NCBI RefSeq assembly: GCF_020905375.1
Contig: NZ_JAJJBU010000024.1
Coordinates: 1-64,000 of the forward strand
DNA: 64,000 nt
From: Arthrobacter cryoconiti
Lineage (GTDB): Bacteria; Actinomycetota; Actinomycetes; Actinomycetales; Micrococcaceae
Reading direction: 5' to 3'
Below the pieces are notes generated by a model that was not told where the DNA came from, did not search any database, and worked only from the letters and a program-made list of their open reading frames with translations. The translations under genes were made by a program, and so were the position numbers. The stretch's first letter is position 1. Each line of letters starts with the position of its first letter. Below, one piece after another: positions 25,137-60,449 of this stretch.

Positions 25137-25511
25137 ATGGCTAAGCTCACCAATGACGAGCTCATCGCAGCTTTCAAAGAACTGACCATCATCGAGCTCT
25201 CCGAGTTCGTCAAGCTCTTCGAAGAGACCTTTGAAGTAACCGCTGCTGCTGTTGCAGTTTCCGGCCCCGCCGGCGGCGCCGCTGAAGCCGAAGAGGAGCA
25301 GACGGAATTCGACGTCGTCCTCGAAGCTGCAGGCGACAAGAAGATCGCAGTGATCAAGGAAGTTCGCGCCCTGACGTCCCTCGGACTGAAGGAAGCCAAG
25401 GACGTTGTTGACTCCGCTCCCAAGGCTGTTCTGGAAGGCGTCACCAAGGAAGCCGCAGAGAAGGCAAAGGACGCTCTCGAAGCTGCCGGCGCCACGGTTA
25501 CCGTCAAGTAA
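25137..25511 (+). CDS. rplL: 50S ribosomal protein L7/L12
   Basis: The multicopy stalk protein that recruits and activates translation GTPases. The 124-residue product has an N-terminal dimerisation domain ([20 protein letters not shown]), an Ala/Gly hinge and the C-terminal domain with [20 protein letters not shown], the conserved factor-binding surface. The ATG at 25137 follows AGAAGGAG. A perfect-stem terminator follows 16 bases after the stop, ending the rplJ-rplL unit before the repeats. Confidence 0.97.
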
Positions 25512-25527
25512 TCTTCTCGCTTTTTTC

Positions 25528-25563
25528 AAAGAAGCCCCGCACCGATTGGTGCGGGGCTTCTTT
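25528..25563 (+). terminator. Rho-independent terminator after rplL
   Basis: AAAGAAGCCCCGCACC and GGTGCGGGGCTTCTTT form a 16-pair perfect stem with the loop GATT, the right arm ending in the T-run. It ends the rplJ-rplL operon. Confidence 0.95.
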
Positions 25564-25605
25564 GTGTCCGGCGGGGTATCTGACGCGGTACCGGACAGGC
25601 TTTCA

Positions 25606-25689
25606 CCGGCATTTTTCCGGCGTCTATCCGACGCGCCGGCCGCCTGGGGCCTTTAGCGTCTCCTTTACGTCGCCTACAAAAGATGCCGG
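25606..25689. repeat. Structured repeat, family 1, single copy A
   Basis: An 84-base nested palindrome. The stems are CCGGCAT/ATGCCGG (outer), GGCGTC/GTCGCC (one mismatch), GACGC/GCGTC and GGCC/GGCC (inner). The unpaired segments TATCC (left) and TCCTTTAC (right) are identical to those in copy B and in the tandem array at 52134-52775. Just upstream (25566-25595) is a further inverted repeat, GTCCGG/CCGGAC, that may be a decayed relative. It lies in the 316-base gene-free gap between rplL and the YbaK-type gene. Confidence 0.8.
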
Positions 25690-25708
25690 CCGAACGTTCT
25701 CGGTCATC

Positions 25709-25811
25709 CTGCGGTGGCGCCGGTATTCCCTCGGTCGCTATCCGACTGACGGCCGCAGGCGGCCTTACAGTCTCCTTTACGCGACCTACGGAAACACCGG
25801 CGCCACCGCAG
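25709..25811. repeat. Structured repeat, family 1, single copy B
   Basis: A 103-base nested palindrome. The outer stem is 16 perfect pairs, CTGCGGTGGCGCCGGT/ACCGGCGCCACCGCAG. Inner stems are GGTCGC/GCGACC, GACTG/CAGTC and GGCCGC/GCGGCC. The bulges ATTCCCTC, TATCC and TCCTTTAC match the array at 52134-52775. Where copy A has GACGC/GCGTC and the array has GACACA/TGTGTC, this copy has GACTG/CAGTC, so pairing is kept while bases differ. Confidence 0.85.
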
Positions 25812-25827
25812 ACCGCCAACAGCCCTG

Positions 25828-26307
25828 CTAGTCGAGCACCGAGATATCGGCCACTGTGGCACCCAAGGCTTCAATAAGGGAATCAGCATCTACGAACATG
25901 CTGTAACCGTGTTCCCCTGCACCCATGGCGACCCGACGCCCACGAATCGTTTCGTCAGCGAACACGGGCCACGGCGTCGTACTCCCCAAGGGGGTGATGG
26001 TGCCGCGCTCATAACCTGTAGCATCACGGGCCGCCTGGGGTGCCGGTAGTTGGAGCTTGTTCACACCCACCACAGCACGCAGTTTCGGCCAGGAGATGGC
26101 CCGCCCACCCGGGATCAGCGCAAAGAGGAACGATCCGTCGCTGCGTTTGACCACAAGAGATTTGAGGATCTGTTTGGGTTCGATCCCCAGCACCGCAGCG
26201 GCCTCGATGAGTGAGTCCGCGGGCGGACGCGCAAGAATCTCCACCTTTAGCCCTTTGTCACGGGCATCAGCCAGAACGCGGGCGTGTCCGTGGAGTTCTA
26301 TGCTCAC
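25828..26307 (-). CDS. ybaK: YbaK/EbsC-family Cys-tRNA(Pro) deacylase-like protein
   Basis: A 159-residue single-domain protein of the YbaK/ProX editing family, which hydrolyses mischarged aminoacyl-tRNA such as Cys-tRNA(Pro). Seen motifs are QILKSLVVKRSDGSFLFALI, with the lysine that is catalytic in YbaK, and GTITPLGSTTPWPVFADE, the typical GxxxPxG stretch. The start is taken as GTG at 26307, which overlaps the thiolase stop by four bases (GTGA) and gives VSIELHGHARVLADA; a longer upstream frame has no family match. It is translated with the thiolase gene but a functional link is not evident. Confidence 0.88.
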   Translation of the reverse strand: MSIELHGHARVLADARDKGLKVEILARPPADSLIEAAAVLGIEPKQILKSLVVKRSDGSFLFALIPGGRAISWPKLRAVVGVNKLQLPAPQAARDATGYERGTITPLGSTTPWPVFADETIRGRRVAMGAGEHGYSMFVDADSLIEALGATVADISVLD

Positions 26308-27503
26308 TCGGCGTCGCGGAAGAGCAGAAGCGCTTCGCCTTGACCGCCACCGCCGCACAGAGAGACAGCAGCCTTACCGGAGCCACGGCGCTGTAGTTCG
26401 AAGGCCGCGTGGAGTGCCAGTCGTGCACCTGAAGCTCCGATTGGGTGCCCCAGGGCTATGGCGCCGCCATGAATGTTGCACTTCTCCAACGGGTAGTCCA
26501 AATCGCGAAGGGACTGCACTGCCACAGACGCGAAAGCTTCGTTGATTTCGATGAAGTCCAGCTCCTGCGCTGTCCACCCAGCCCGTGTCAGCGCAGCCGT
26601 TATGGCGTGCGAGGGCTGAGAGTGAAGTGAATTATCGGGTCCAGCGACTTGCCCGGGTGCGCCCACTACGGCTAGCCAGCTCAGGCCGTGTTCATCCGCG
26701 TAGGCACGTGAAGTGAGTACCAGCGCGGATGCGCCGTCGGAAAGGGGGGAGGAGTTTCCAGCCGTGATGGCTCCGTCAGCAGAAAACGCTGGGCGTAGGG
26801 GGGCGAGTGTCTCCGCGGTGGTTCCGGCCCGTACGCCCTCGTCCTGTGTCAGTATCAGGGGTTCACCTTTGCGCTGAGGGACTGTGACGGGGACGATCTC
26901 GGCGTCAAAAACCCCGGCTTCATGGGCTGCTGCGGCACGCTGATGTGACGCGGCTGCCACCTCGTCCTGTGCGGAGCGGGTCAAATTCAACCTAATATTG
27001 CCTCGTTCCGTAGAGAGGCCCATAGATTCACCGTCAAAGGCGTCTGTGAGCCCGTCTCTGGCAGCGGCGTCCAGTGCCTGTACAGAACCATAGGTCCAGC
27101 CCTGGCGGGACCCTGGCAGCAAATGGGGGGCCCGAGTCATCGATTCCTGCCCACCGGCTACCACCACGCGGGCGTCACCGCTGCGGATCATCCGAGCAGC
27201 ATCAATGACGGCAGTCAAACCGGAGAGGCAGACCTTATTGATGGTCACGGCTGGCACGTTCCAACCGATGCCTGCCCCAATGGAACTTTGGCGTGCCGGA
27301 TTCTGGCCAGCACCGGCTTGGAGTACATGCCCCATGATCACGTGGTCTACGTCGCGGGCGTCGACTCCTGAGCGATCCAAGGCCGCCGAAATTGCCTTGG
27401 CTCCAAGTTCTACACCGGTGAAAGCCGACAATTGCCCGTTCAAGCGTCCTTGTGGAGTGCGGGCTCCGGAGAGAATTACCACATCGTTTGCTTGTGCCCT
27501 CAT
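26304..27503 (-). CDS. Acetyl-CoA C-acetyltransferase (thiolase)
   Basis: A 399-residue thiolase. The nucleophilic cysteine is C92 in TINKVCLSGLTAVIDAAR, with GGAIALGHPIGASGARL (catalytic His) and the second cysteine in SLCGGGGQGEALLL near the C-terminus. These fit biosynthetic or degradative acetoacetyl-CoA thiolases; the exact chain-length preference is unknown. The ATG at 27503 follows AAGGAG. It stands on the minus strand between rplL and rpoB with the YbaK-type gene, an insertion into the usual rif order. Confidence 0.92.
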   Translation of the reverse strand: MRAQANDVVILSGARTPQGRLNGQLSAFTGVELGAKAISAALDRSGVDARDVDHVIMGHVLQAGAGQNPARQSSIGAGIGWNVPAVTINKVCLSGLTAVIDAARMIRSGDARVVVAGGQESMTRAPHLLPGSRQGWTYGSVQALDAAARDGLTDAFDGESMGLSTERGNIRLNLTRSAQDEVAAASHQRAAAAHEAGVFDAEIVPVTVPQRKGEPLILTQDEGVRAGTTAETLAPLRPAFSADGAITAGNSSPLSDGASALVLTSRAYADEHGLSWLAVVGAPGQVAGPDNSLHSQPSHAITAALTRAGWTAQELDFIEINEAFASVAVQSLRDLDYPLEKCNIHGGAIALGHPIGASGARLALHAAFELQRRGSGKAAVSLCGGGGQGEALLLFRDAE

Positions 27504-40441: not shown

Positions 40442-43400
40442 ATGAATTACCCACTGCAGCCTCCAACCAGTCAGCAGCCAGGATCATTCGCCACTGAACT
40501 CAATGACGCGTACCGAGTGGGTTACCTCCAGGGACACTTGGCTGGATGGCGTGATGCTGTGGCCCAGAGCGCGCAGCCAGCGCCCCAGGTGCCGCGAACC
40601 CAGCAAGAGCCGCAGGCCCAGAGCGCGCCCCAGGCCCGGCAAATCCCGCAGGCCCGCCAAATGCCCCAGGCCCCGCAAATCCCGCAGGCCCCGCAAATCC
40701 CGCAGGCCCAGAGCGCGCCCCAGTCCCCGCCTGTGCCGTTGATGCCGCAACAGGCTCCGAACTTGCGCAAATCTGCGAACTTCACTGCACCGCAACGTGC
40801 TCGCGTTGCGCAGAGTGGCCCCGTCTCCGCATCTCCGCGTTACCCTGCTGCTCGCGCGCTCACGCTGGCGAACCCCCATGAACTGGCGAGAAGAAAAGCC
40901 AGGCGTGAGTCGCAGAATATCAACATCACACTTTATATTGCAGCTTTGCTGATGGTGGCAGCAGCTGCCCTGTTCATTGCCAGTTCAGCGCCCACGGCCG
41001 TACGACTCATCGGCGTGTGGAGCGTAACGGCATTGTTCTACGGCGTTGGACTGGTACTCCATGCAAAGATTATTCGGCTCCGTCCAGCTGCCGTTGCCTT
41101 TGCTGGAACTGCGCTGGCACTTGTGCCGTTTGCCGGGCTGGCTACCTACAATCTTGGCTTTCCGGATGCACCAGTTGTCTGGCTGATTACTTCGGTGGTT
41201 GGCGCCGTTGCCTACGTTGTTACTGCCATACGACTCTCCAGTAGGTTGATCGTTTACCTCTCGATGGGTTTCTTTCTCTCCACGGCATGGTCCTCGGTCG
41301 CCGTTTTTGGTGCCGCTTTGGCATGGTACTTCACCATCTTGATTGTCTTCTCCGCGGTGCTCGTCTTGATCGGCAATTTGTTGGGTAAGCAGGGCGTCGG
41401 CCCTCAGGGCAGGGCAAATCTCTATGCCAGGCCGTTGGCCGCTCTTGGCCCGTGGTTCGCTCCGCTGGGGCTCATTGCTTCGCTGGTGTTCTCGCTCGCG
41501 TTGAATGCGGCCGACCACACTCTGGTGCTGGGTGCCGGAGTCTTCTACTACGCAGTCATGGCCATATTTGATAGCGCATCCATGCGTCGCTGGAACTACG
41601 TTGGTCTGCGGCTCTCTCTGACGTTGGCAGCGCCTTTCGCTGGCTGGCTTGTGGGGGAGTCCTGGGCATCCTCTGCGGGGACGATGACTGTTGTCTTGGC
41701 CGTTCAGCTTGTCCTGGTGGCACATAACCGCAGGTCTTTGGGGACGTGGCTGCGTACGTTGACGGGGCCTGATCTGGATGTGCAGTTCGGTGTTCCACTC
41801 ACAGCTTTGTTGGCCCTGGTGTGGAGTGTGGGTCTAAGCGTTTCCCGGCACGACGCCGGAGCGTGGGTTTGGAGCCCGGCCTTGCCGTTCGTCGTTGCCT
41901 TGCTAACCGCGGTAGCCGTGGTTCCGGCATTGTCCCCACGGGGTGAATGGCTGCCACTGCCCTCGCTTGGCGGCATGCTCATGGCCTTCAGCTTGCTGAA
42001 GGCCAGTGACTGGACTATTTTTCTTGCTGTCGCTGCTGCATGTTCTCTGCTGAGATTCGTCACGGCGAGAGCAGCGGAGGTGCGCCAGGTCATGCTGATG
42101 GCTACCCGCTTGCTGGCCACTGCATTGGTTGCGTCGGCAATGGTTGCCTATGTTCCGTCACAACCAAGCAAAACTGCGGTGATCGTCGCCGTCTTGGCTG
42201 TGATCGCGGCTGGCCAATTGTTCGCTGATACCATGATGGGTCGTTATGGAGTGCCCAGTCGCGTCACGGCGCTCTCTGGTGCTGCGTGGGCTGTGATCGG
42301 CGCCGTACTTGTTGTGGCACTCGCCGTGCTGCATACGAACGCGCAGCTCATGGCAACAGGTGGACTGGTGGAAAGGGTGCAGGGTCCCTTCGTTTTGGCG
42401 GCCGTTGCGATGACAGTCAGTGTTTGTCTGCATTCTTGGCTCAATCTGCCAAAGACAGGTCAGTATGTGCCGGCGGAAATAATGGCGCCAGCCTACTTGG
42501 TTGTTGCCGGATTCAGTGCGGGGTTTGTCTTTGCGGCGAGCGGTGCTGTGGTGGCTTGGGGAACCGTGGTGGTGTTCCTAGTGGGCATGGCCCTGTGGGT
42601 GCCGGCACAAGCGGCCAGTGGGCACCGTTGGTTGTACTGGCGCAGTGCTAGGGCTGCCTCACTTTTGCTCGTGATCGGCCTTTTCCAGTTGTGGCAGGAG
42701 CATGTGCGCGTTCCAACGCTTTGGGGGAGCGAAGTAACACTGTCGATGATGTTAGTCGTTGTCCTGGTGGCCCATATTTTGATTCTTGCTGGAGCGCTGG
42801 TTCGAAAACGTACACAGACTTCCTTGGGCATCGATGTCCTGATGACGTTGGTGGTCGCAGTTCTTGCAGCGGGTACAGAGTTGCTCACGGGAGCTAATGA
42901 GACTTGGACCGGTGGCACTGTCATCGCCATGCTCGCAGTCTCCACTGCGGTGTTGGGCTGGTGCGCGGCTCGACGTTCACCAGCTGGCGATGACATGCAC
43001 TCGCCATTGCCCACGTCTAATTCAGGAACCCACACTGAGGCATGGAACGCATTTTGGGCCCAGGCTGTCCTTGCAGCACTCGTGATTCCTTCGATCGCAC
43101 GTGATCACGGAAGCACGAATTCGCAGGTGCTGCTGGGCCTGACGAGCGTGGCGACTCTTCTTCTTGCCGTGAGGGCAAGCCAGCCGTACTTGCGCGGCGC
43201 CTATTTCTTGCTGGCGAGGATCGTCGTGACGATCTTAGTTGCCGCGATGGTCATGGACTTTACCCGGAATCGCACCACATTGACGTTGACGTTGAGTGCG
43301 GTTTTGCTGGGCCAGTTGCTAGTGCAGTGGTTGGCCAGCACGTCTGCGGAGTCACGCTTGGTGGGAGAACCCAGAGTGCTCCGTGCGAGTCTCTGGCTGC

Positions 43401-51737: not shown

Positions 51738-52030
51738 GCGATTCTGTAAGCAACATTGAAGAAGGCGCCGGCACCGTGGTTCGCCACGAACGCAAGAAAT
51801 TGCGTGGCTATGTCGTCTCCGACAAGATGGAAAAAACCATCGTCGTCGAGGTTGAGGACCGCGTAAAGCACGCCCTCTACGGCAAGGTTCTTCGCCGTAC
51901 CTCGAAGGTCAAGGCTCATGATGAAGAGAACAGCGCCGGCATCGGCGACCTGGTCCTCATCAGCGAGACTCGTCCGCTCTCCGCCACCAAGCGGTGGCGC
52001 CTAGTCGAGGTAATCGAAAAGGCTAAGTAA
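51734..52030 (+). CDS. rpsQ: 30S ribosomal protein S17
   Basis: Primary 16S rRNA binding protein. The 98-residue protein has the S17 core [20 protein letters not shown] and [20 protein letters not shown]. Its start overlaps rpmC (GTGA). A strong terminator follows 38 bases downstream, ending the S10 unit here instead of running on into rplN. Confidence 0.98.
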
Positions 52031-52114: not shown

Positions 52115-52780
52115 ACCCGGAACTGGCGCGAGGACTCTGGCATTCCCTCGGCGACTATCCGACACACGGCCGCGGGCGGCCTTTGTGTCTCCTTTACGTC
52201 GCCTACGTGAACACCAGAGTTTTACCCCCGGAACTGGCGCGTAGACTCTGGCATTCCCTCGGCGACTATCCGACACACGGCCGCGGGCGGCCTTTGTGTC
52301 CCCTTTACGTCGCCTACGTGAACACCAGAGTTTTACCCCCGGAACTGGCGCGTAGACTCTGGCATTCCCTCGGCGACTATCCGACACACGGCCGCGGGCG
52401 GCCTTTGTGTCCCCTTTACGTCGCCTACGTGAACACCAGAGTCTTACCCCCGGAACTGGCGCGTAGACTCTGGCATTCCCTCGGCGACTATCCGACACAC
52501 GGCCGCGGGCGGCCTTTGTGTCTCCTTTACGTCGCCTACGTGAACACCAGAGTTTTACCCCCGGAACTGGCGCGTAGACTCTGGCATTCCCTCGGCGACT
52601 ATCCGACACACGGCCGCGGGCGGCCTTTGTGTCTCCTTTACGTCGCCTACGTGAACACCAGAGTTTTACCCCCGGAACTGGCGCGTAGACTCTGGCATTC
52701 CCTCGGCGACTATCCGACACACGGCCGCGGGCGGCCTTTGTGTCTCCTTTACGTCGCCTACGTGAACACCAGAGTTTTAC
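52115..52780. repeat. Six-copy 111-bp tandem array of structured repeat family 1
   Basis: The repeated segment CATTCCCTCG begins at 52141, 52252, 52363, 52474, 52585 and 52696, an exact 111-base period. Each unit is an 87-base nested hairpin (52134-52220 and then every 111 bases to 52689-52775) plus a 24-base linker. The stems are ACTCTGG/CCAGAGT, GGCGAC/GTCGCC, GACACA/TGTGTC and GGCCG/CGGCC. Copies differ at only a few bases (TCTCC versus TCCCC, GTTTT versus GTCTT). Since 111 is a multiple of three, reading frames stay open through it on both strands; these are artefacts. Confidence 0.93.
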
Positions 52781-53148
52781 CGTGGTGGTATCGACAGTCT
52801 TGGTCTGTGCTCGGTGTGGGGTAGGCAACGCTTTTGGTGAGACCACGACGTCAGGTGTGGTAGCGCCGCCGTGCTAGGATAGTCTATTGCTGCGCCTTTT
52901 CTGTGCCGCCATTTTGGTGGAGGCAGTGGTGCGCAATTACCTCGTAAATGCTCGTGCCACTACAAACTGCCGTCCTCGTTCTGGAGAAATTCAGTCACAG
53001 GTGCGGAAAGTGCAGTTGGCATGAGACATTTAGGCGCGTTCTGGCAAAATCCAGGCGCGTCAAGAGACATCCCGATCAATACGTTCCGCAAGGCTTATCC
53101 ACAGCGGTTTTTGTGGCCAAGAACCGGCGCGACGAACAGGAGACACTA
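52781..53148 (+). promoter_or_regulatory. Upstream region of the rplN operon
   Basis: This 368-base gap between the array and rplN has no credible gene. TAGGAT (52875-52880) in the context GTGCTAGGATAGTCTATTG is a good candidate -10 box; a matching -35 is not evident. It would leave a leader of about 260 bases. It presumably carries an independent promoter for the spc genes because of the terminator after rpsQ. Confidence 0.4.
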
Positions 53149-60335: not shown

Positions 60336-60449
60336 TCCCCACACCCTCCCCACCTGCGCTCCGCACCTGCGCTCCCCACCTGCGCTCCCCACCTGCGCTC
60401 CCCACCTGCGCTCCGTACAGCCGGGGCCCTCGGGTGCGTGGCCCCACCC
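60332..60449. repeat. Repeat family 2, copy 2, with 13-bp tandem repeats
   Basis: The left flank CTAGTCCCCACACCCTCCC, which includes the map TAG stop, and the right flank CCCTCGGGTGCGTGGCCCCA match the flanks of the element at 13582-13652. The arms CCCCACACCC and GGGTGCGTGG can pair. The centre is occupied by five units of [C/G]CACCTGCGCTCC (60350-60362, 60363-60375, 60376-60388, 60389-60401, 60402-60414). Confidence 0.75.

Follow-up and report, generated by a model that had tools for sequence, protein, structure and literature searches.

The hairpins described here constitute a new and dispersed family of repeated elements in Arthrobacter, REP-like in kind, longer, and built to a blueprint of its own. 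What we observe is a family whose stems covary, together with a polarity between its strands, a preference for the 3' ends of genes, frequent inverted pairs, and intergenic slots that are shared between species. We lean toward reading it as a REP-like element whose copies were at one time spread in the form of a single-stranded hairpin and are now largely inherited in place.

Blueprint and covariation of the hairpin

The window (the whole 64-kb stretch of DNA under analysis) holds eight copies, all matched on the minus strand by a covariance model, R1, that was built from 27 copies (alignment A4). Copies A (25601..25693, 81.4 bits) and B (25709..25812, of which 25715-25804 match R1 with 97.1 bits) together take up 25601-25804, and six tandem copies make up an array at 52 kb (52132..52221, 89.7 bits; 52243..52332, 86.8 bits; 52354..52443, 87.2 bits; and 52465..52554, 52576..52665 and 52687..52776, each 90.0 bits), for which TRF reports a period of 111 bp and 6.0 copies. 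The pattern TCCTTTACG..CTAC turns up six times in the window, where chance would give 0.00. Fold z-scores for copy B are -9.9 on the minus and -9.7 on the plus strand, and for one array copy -6.8 and -4.3; that of copy A is weak on the minus strand (-1.4) and stands at -3.6 on the plus strand.

Copies A and B occupy the gap between rplL (ribosomal protein L7/L12; 25137..25511, plus strand; Pfam PF00542 and PF16320), the upstream neighbour of copy A, and a YbaK-like gene with an aminoacyl-tRNA editing domain (25828..26358, minus strand; assigned by Pfam PF04073 and orthologues), which converges on rplL and has its stop codon near copy B. The array occupies the gap between its upstream gene rpsQ (S17; stop codon at 52028-52030; Pfam PF00366) and rplN (L14; 53149..53517, plus strand; Pfam PF00238). 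Upstream of rplN, at 52870-53148 and in loci L376-L398, there is also a promoter-like region and leader with a hairpin of the CGTTCTGGCAAAATCCAGG type, a stretch that by eye is well conserved in most of 23 loci and is possibly an unannotated ribosomal-protein leader. The window further contains a tandem repeat, CTCCCCACCTGCG, at 60346-60414 (5.3 copies, 96% matches) and tandem 18/36-bp repeats, CAGGCCCCGCAAATCCCG, at 40610-40709.

Read on the strand that bears GTAG, the element is one imperfect hairpin of roughly 90-110 nt, in which a copy-specific outer stem, an unpaired GTAG, stem 2, the loop GTAAAGGA, stem 3 and a GC-rich tip are followed by the returning arm of stem 3, the loop GGATA, and the returning arms of stem 2 and of the outer stem; the core, from GTAG through the second arm of stem 2, spans 61 columns. 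Copy A has a T-type outer stem, the GTAG tag, the loops GTAAAGGA and GGATA, and GACGC/GCGTC as stem 3; copy B is C-type, with a long copy-specific outer stem and GACTG/CAGTC in that position; in the array, stem 3 is GACACA/TGTGTC. The initial annotation had quoted these third stems, along with the second stems GGCGTC/GTCGCC, GGTCGC/GCGACC and GGCGAC/GTCGCC, and all are present as given, including the single mismatch in copy A; the outer stems, as it also stated, differ between copies and yet pair in every one. Its unpaired stretches fared less evenly: TATCC is indeed identical in all eight copies, whereas TCCTTTAC is exact in only six, array copies 2 and 3 reading CCCTTTAC on the plus strand, and ATTCCCTC mostly belongs to one arm of the outer stem.

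That the stems covary is established because 103 distinct copies could be compared; the three kinds of copy in the window alone would be insufficient. Alignment A6 comprises 118 matches, equivalent to 103 distinct rows (three from other genera), fitted to the R1 model, which leans toward the structure, and in these rows 97.0% of 2425 base-pair cells are paired. Changes on both sides of a pair are found in 18 of 24 pairs against 10.5 in shuffles, further pair types number 53 against 34.9, and the covariation score is 0.381 against 0.170; none of 500 shuffles reached as high on any of these measures, and structures slid along the alignment scored at most 0.106. The stem 3 differences are plain in raw loop-pattern matches as well, independently of model fitting. 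The unpaired GTAG before stem 2 is exact in 85 of the 103 rows. Seventy-two rows have the loops GTAAAGGA and GGATA and 12 have GTCAGGGA and GGAAA, with no row mixing these two main sets and other forms seen once each or three times. At least five copies (L010, L016, L021, L027 and L305) carry, inside the element and beside the GGATA or GGAAA loop, a near-constant hairpin insert of about 60 bp (CCCCAAGCGCTCCC...CTCGTGGGCCCA).

Wobble pairs are distributed unequally between the strands: on the GTAG strand, G-T wobbles number 151 and A-C mismatches 11, most of the G-T excess coming from a few shared outer-stem positions, so that the independent events are fewer; in stems 2 and 3 and the tip alone, the counts summed per pair are 19 and 3. 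Since G-T so outnumbers A-C, the single GTAG strand is probably the form on which selection acts. The proposal in the initial annotation, that what is selected is a folded molecule (RNA or single-stranded DNA) and not the sequence, is supported by the pairing, by the double-sided changes and by the shuffles, and is further backed by the polarity of the wobbles and by the persistence of the core in one shared slot described below; a covariance-model search, of the kind it called for, yielded the 103 distinct copies.

It is conceivable that the arms covary neutrally, with palindromes corrected by template switching and no selection for pairing at all, and the outer stems, which are long, often near-perfect and copy-specific, with their double changes clustered, look much as such a process would leave them. 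Stems 2 and 3, however, are only 5-6 bp long and lie between conserved loops that are not complementary, and they covary nonetheless; furthermore, the core outlasts its spacers in the gap between argJ and argB. We regard this explanation as very improbable.

Placement between genes and conservation in place

Gene context was assigned with a simple caller that relies on codons and for which 20 ORFs of the window served as training set. Of the 105 distinct copies, 57 are in tandem gaps (six of these being the array), 38 in convergent gaps and none in a divergent gap, with 10 lying within a called gene, whereas 61 element-free gaps of at least 60 bp in the same loci comprise 40 tandem, 6 convergent and 15 divergent. 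Divergent gaps thus hold 0 of 95 intergenic copies and account for 15 of the 61 other gaps; for convergent gaps the figures are 38 of 95 and 6 of 61. With the array taken once and copies called inside genes dropped, 67 of 90 copies carry GTAG on the strand opposite to the gene that turns its 3' end toward them, at a median distance of 31 nt, the remaining 23 having a median distance of 95 nt. Because copies in pairs and in shared slots are not independent, the 93 loci were collapsed to 43 slots, of which 20 are tandem, 19 convergent, none divergent and 4 inside a called gene; per slot, divergent placement is 0 of 39 against 15 of 61 gaps (p = 3e-4), and slots with single copies are opposite in 24 cases, same in 6 and mixed in 7 (p = 0.001). 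A bias toward one replication strand was considered and rejected (39 against 51, p = 0.25, for 90 copies in seven genomes, with 1 of 22 rows left out in G015, 4 of 28 in G006, 4 of 17 in G012 and 2 of 22 in G021).

Such placement would suit an element that the host maintains by selection at the 3' ends of genes and that acts in cis, as RNA or on transcription, be it a bidirectional terminator, an insulator or a stabiliser of mRNA 3' ends, and transcriptional insulation is the main rival to the REP-like reading. The orientation toward the facing gene (67 of 90 copies; 24 slots against 6), the enrichment in convergent gaps and the conservation in place between argJ and argB all speak for it, and on the plus strand of the array the GC-rich tip together with the TTT after it is scored six times as a terminator-like site, compared with 1.4 in shuffles. 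Against this, 25400-25900 gives 0 terminator-like sites (0.5 in shuffles), in a scan that also misses the GC-rich hairpin at about 25530-25562 after rplL, terminator-like by eye. Where a GC-rich hairpin of this kind, apparently the terminator of the upstream gene, is visible in either of the two ribosomal slots, rplL or rpsQ, the copies come after it (again by eye); moreover, the strand that tolerates wobbles is antisense in the majority orientation, and orientation within one slot varies between species. Taken together, we consider a host element of this kind rather unlikely as the principal explanation.

Neighbouring copies less than 500 bp apart form 21 pairs among 146 copies in seven genomes. 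Twelve of the pairs are inverted, always minus then plus and never in the opposite order, and the spacers of several of them are alike by eye. The other nine are direct; six of these are in the window (A with B, and the array), one lies elsewhere in the same genome, and G021 and G012 have one each, that of G012 involving a partial match. The direct copies found elsewhere in the genome of the window lie 114 bp apart at G000:C54:8988-9191 (L446), and with A, B and the array this genome appears to favour tandem direct copies where other genomes have inverted pairs. For two distant copies in G014, the idea that they delimit a transposon was rejected, the intervening ORFs being ordinary metabolic genes by eye.

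Seventeen slots are common to at least two genomes, and the widest of them spans ten. It lies between genes identified through Pfam as an ArgJ family member and an amino acid kinase, the latter of which we take to be argB. Six species, picked for their shared orientation and stem 2, keep one copy in one orientation here, and the other species of the slot have other copies, some of them reversed. Among the six, identity with gaps excluded is 0.921 in the core, 0.857 and 0.826 in the outer-stem arms, 0.627 and 0.538 in the spacers, and 0.834 at the coding end of argJ (five of the six species); with gaps counted as differences, the corresponding values are 0.908, 0.857 and 0.732, 0.475 and 0.462, and 0.830. 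In G004 and G007 the left spacer contains a further copy; without these two, its identity is 0.553. The copies differ by compensated changes in stem 3 and in the outer stem. Conservation of this order fits use by the host at least as well as it fits selfish DNA, and a host role, for instance the insulation of facing genes, may be compatible with it.

In the rplL-ybaK slot, inspection by eye of 20 loci (rplL being out of view in at least one) revealed copies in seven genomes and a remnant in one. Several genomes have unrelated long palindromes beside ybaK in this slot (L304, L306, L314, L315 and L322), as if, by eye, the gap attracted or tolerated palindromes. Between rpsQ and rplN, the 23 loci inspected in the same way show copies in G000, G003, G006 (inverted), G012, G014 and G021, and a remnant in G019.

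In several slots the species do not agree in orientation, and this, with the siting downstream of genes, would suit an architectural site that acts as double-stranded DNA or as a cruciform, bound for example by gyrase or a nucleoid protein, as some E. coli BIMEs are. There is no obvious reason why, at a site of that kind, one strand should show so many more G-T than A-C pairs (151 against 11), and we think this reading improbable.

Distribution and relatives

Of 58 related genomes, 17 have the loop pattern, and these 17 belong to a single genus. R1 matches 26 of 118 genomes, namely all 23 of the Arthrobacter genus (G016 by one weak match of 34.8 bits) and three from other genera. Copies were fully counted in ten of the 23, the other 13 being scored for presence of an R1 match; at E up to 0.01 there are 35 matches in G014, 28 in G006, 22 each in G015 and G021, 17 in G012, 13 in G000, 9 in G003, 2 in G005 and 1 each in G002 and G016. 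Across 396 genomes of the order, a stricter pattern, GTAAAGGAG..CGGATAG, is present in two, which both belong to this genus. Three contig records with the element (SDTb3-6, GMC3 and E3) are Arthrobacter in NCBI terms and were confirmed by R1; among the matches listed, loop-pattern hits beyond these three in the genome and viral contig sets are taken as chance. Carriage by plasmid or phage was rejected, copy B and its flanks giving no blastn match as query.

Across 197 genomes of the bacterial family, the Micrococcaceae, an R1 search at E up to 1e-5 hits 21, of which 11 are from the genus and 10 from outside it, the latter with a single match apiece. Seven of these ten weak matches outside the genus have loops near TTTAAT/TTCGTT, and six of the seven are one orthologous slot. 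They belong to sister hairpins, from neighbouring genera, that resemble the study family in having a variable outer stem, a short tag, stem 2, a loop, stem 3 and a GC-rich tip, with covarying stems; they differ in their loops, which replace GTAAAGGA/GGATA, and in their tags, mostly GGAA or GTTA, with GTAG in 2 of 15 copies examined. A sister-family model, R2, searched in 17 genomes, finds 10 places in one genome and 8 in another of the same genus, two to three matches in genomes of three other genera (some being both strands of one place), and no match in four of the 17; it also picks up copies of the study genus in G000 (4, all on the strand given by R1 as well), G006 (15) and G014 (23). In 19 sister copies fitted to R2, 94.3% of 662 cells are paired, and 30 of 36 pairs show double changes. 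A single relative in another genus (L415, in G031) has the loops GTAAAGGG/GGATA and a much longer tip hairpin, and looks like the study family.

It is tempting to view these hairpins as a class of structured element in the Micrococcaceae that was undescribed before, in which nested stems are free to change around a conserved, lineage-specific two-sided loop, and which would serve as a recognition site for a protein on single-stranded DNA or RNA and be selected by the host at gene 3' ends; we offer this tentatively, as a possibility that falls well short of probable.

Relation to REPs and possible origin

The initial annotation knew of no named element with this layout. As far as Rfam is concerned this is borne out: only a tRNA matches in the whole window, and in the region of copies A and B, searched up to E = 5, only three microRNA models appear, far below their cut-offs. 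Nor did the accessible text of the open-access literature yield a description of this hairpin family. The general kind is known, however, and it is shared with REPs and REPINs, for which a GTAG tag, dimers, location at 3' ends and compensatory changes are reported in the available text of three papers (PMC3733652, PMC2817692, PMC3116915).

GTAG-REPs, as those available portions portray them (PMC2817692, PMC3733652), likewise consist of a palindrome whose middle is not complementary and whose 5' foot carries an unpaired GTAG (or GTGG), are mostly intergenic near gene 3' ends and chiefly in tandem and convergent gaps, form dimers in opposite orientation, and undergo complementary changes in their stems. 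In the Arthrobacter element we find the tag (85 of 103 copies), the non-complementary middle (in both A4 and A6), siting at 3' ends with divergent gaps devoid of copies, and the inverted doublets (12 of 21 pairs) that characterise REPINs and BIMEs. It is set apart by its length, a 61-column core within a 90-110 nt hairpin against a GTAG-REP unit of 20-40 nt, by its conserved two-sided internal loop, and by the lack of a RAYT gene flanked by the repeat (PF01797, 23 genomes), and because the length and the RAYT association do not agree we have not filed it as a GTAG-REP. A REPIN, in the portion of PMC3116915 at hand, similarly comprises inverted pairs with a spacer, but those are two inverted copies of a short repeat, whereas one unit of the Arthrobacter element by itself forms a long hairpin, with two unequal conserved loops. 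Abundance is given in the accessible text as usually more than 100 copies (PMC2817692), or as 20-100 or fewer for many families (PMC3733652); our counts, from 1 to 35 per genome over the ten genomes, lie below the former figure and inside the latter range. The main text of the 2013 survey (PMC3733652), so far as it was available, places GTAG repeats in Proteobacteria, Cyanobacteria, Chloroflexi and PVC and contains no match to Arthrobacter or Actinobacteria. RepRanger (PMC12306157) does compute an intergenic palindrome count for Arthrobacter livingstonensis, with palindromes limited by default to 32 nt and loops to 11 nt, and no family like the present hairpin was found in its accessible text.

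A RAYT as the present mobiliser was rejected. PF01797 occurs in 2 of 23 genomes of the genus and in none of the genes of the window's own genome; both PF01797 genes adjoin an OrfB/TnpB gene, and R1 finds no hairpin element within those two 3-kb loci.

We favour the REP-like reading, with a confidence that only modestly exceeds doubt, because the tag, the imperfect palindrome, the inverted pairs and the 3'-end bias match those of REPs and REPINs, and because the strands show polarity. The element would have spread as a single-stranded DNA hairpin, and a protein may have recognised it by its GTAG tag together with its two-sided internal loop, by analogy with the recognition of REP by RAYT. The mobilising enzyme would today be either lost or unrecognised, and the copies would largely be inherited in place, with selection still keeping their fold.

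If so, REP-like biology would extend to the Actinobacteria, where the hairpin is longer and more elaborate. The family also represents a natural experiment, in that some 100 copies have the same loops on freely changing stems, many of them in slots that cross species. As such, the question of why bacteria retain repeats of this kind becomes directly testable, and the conserved loops could serve as bait for the partner protein.
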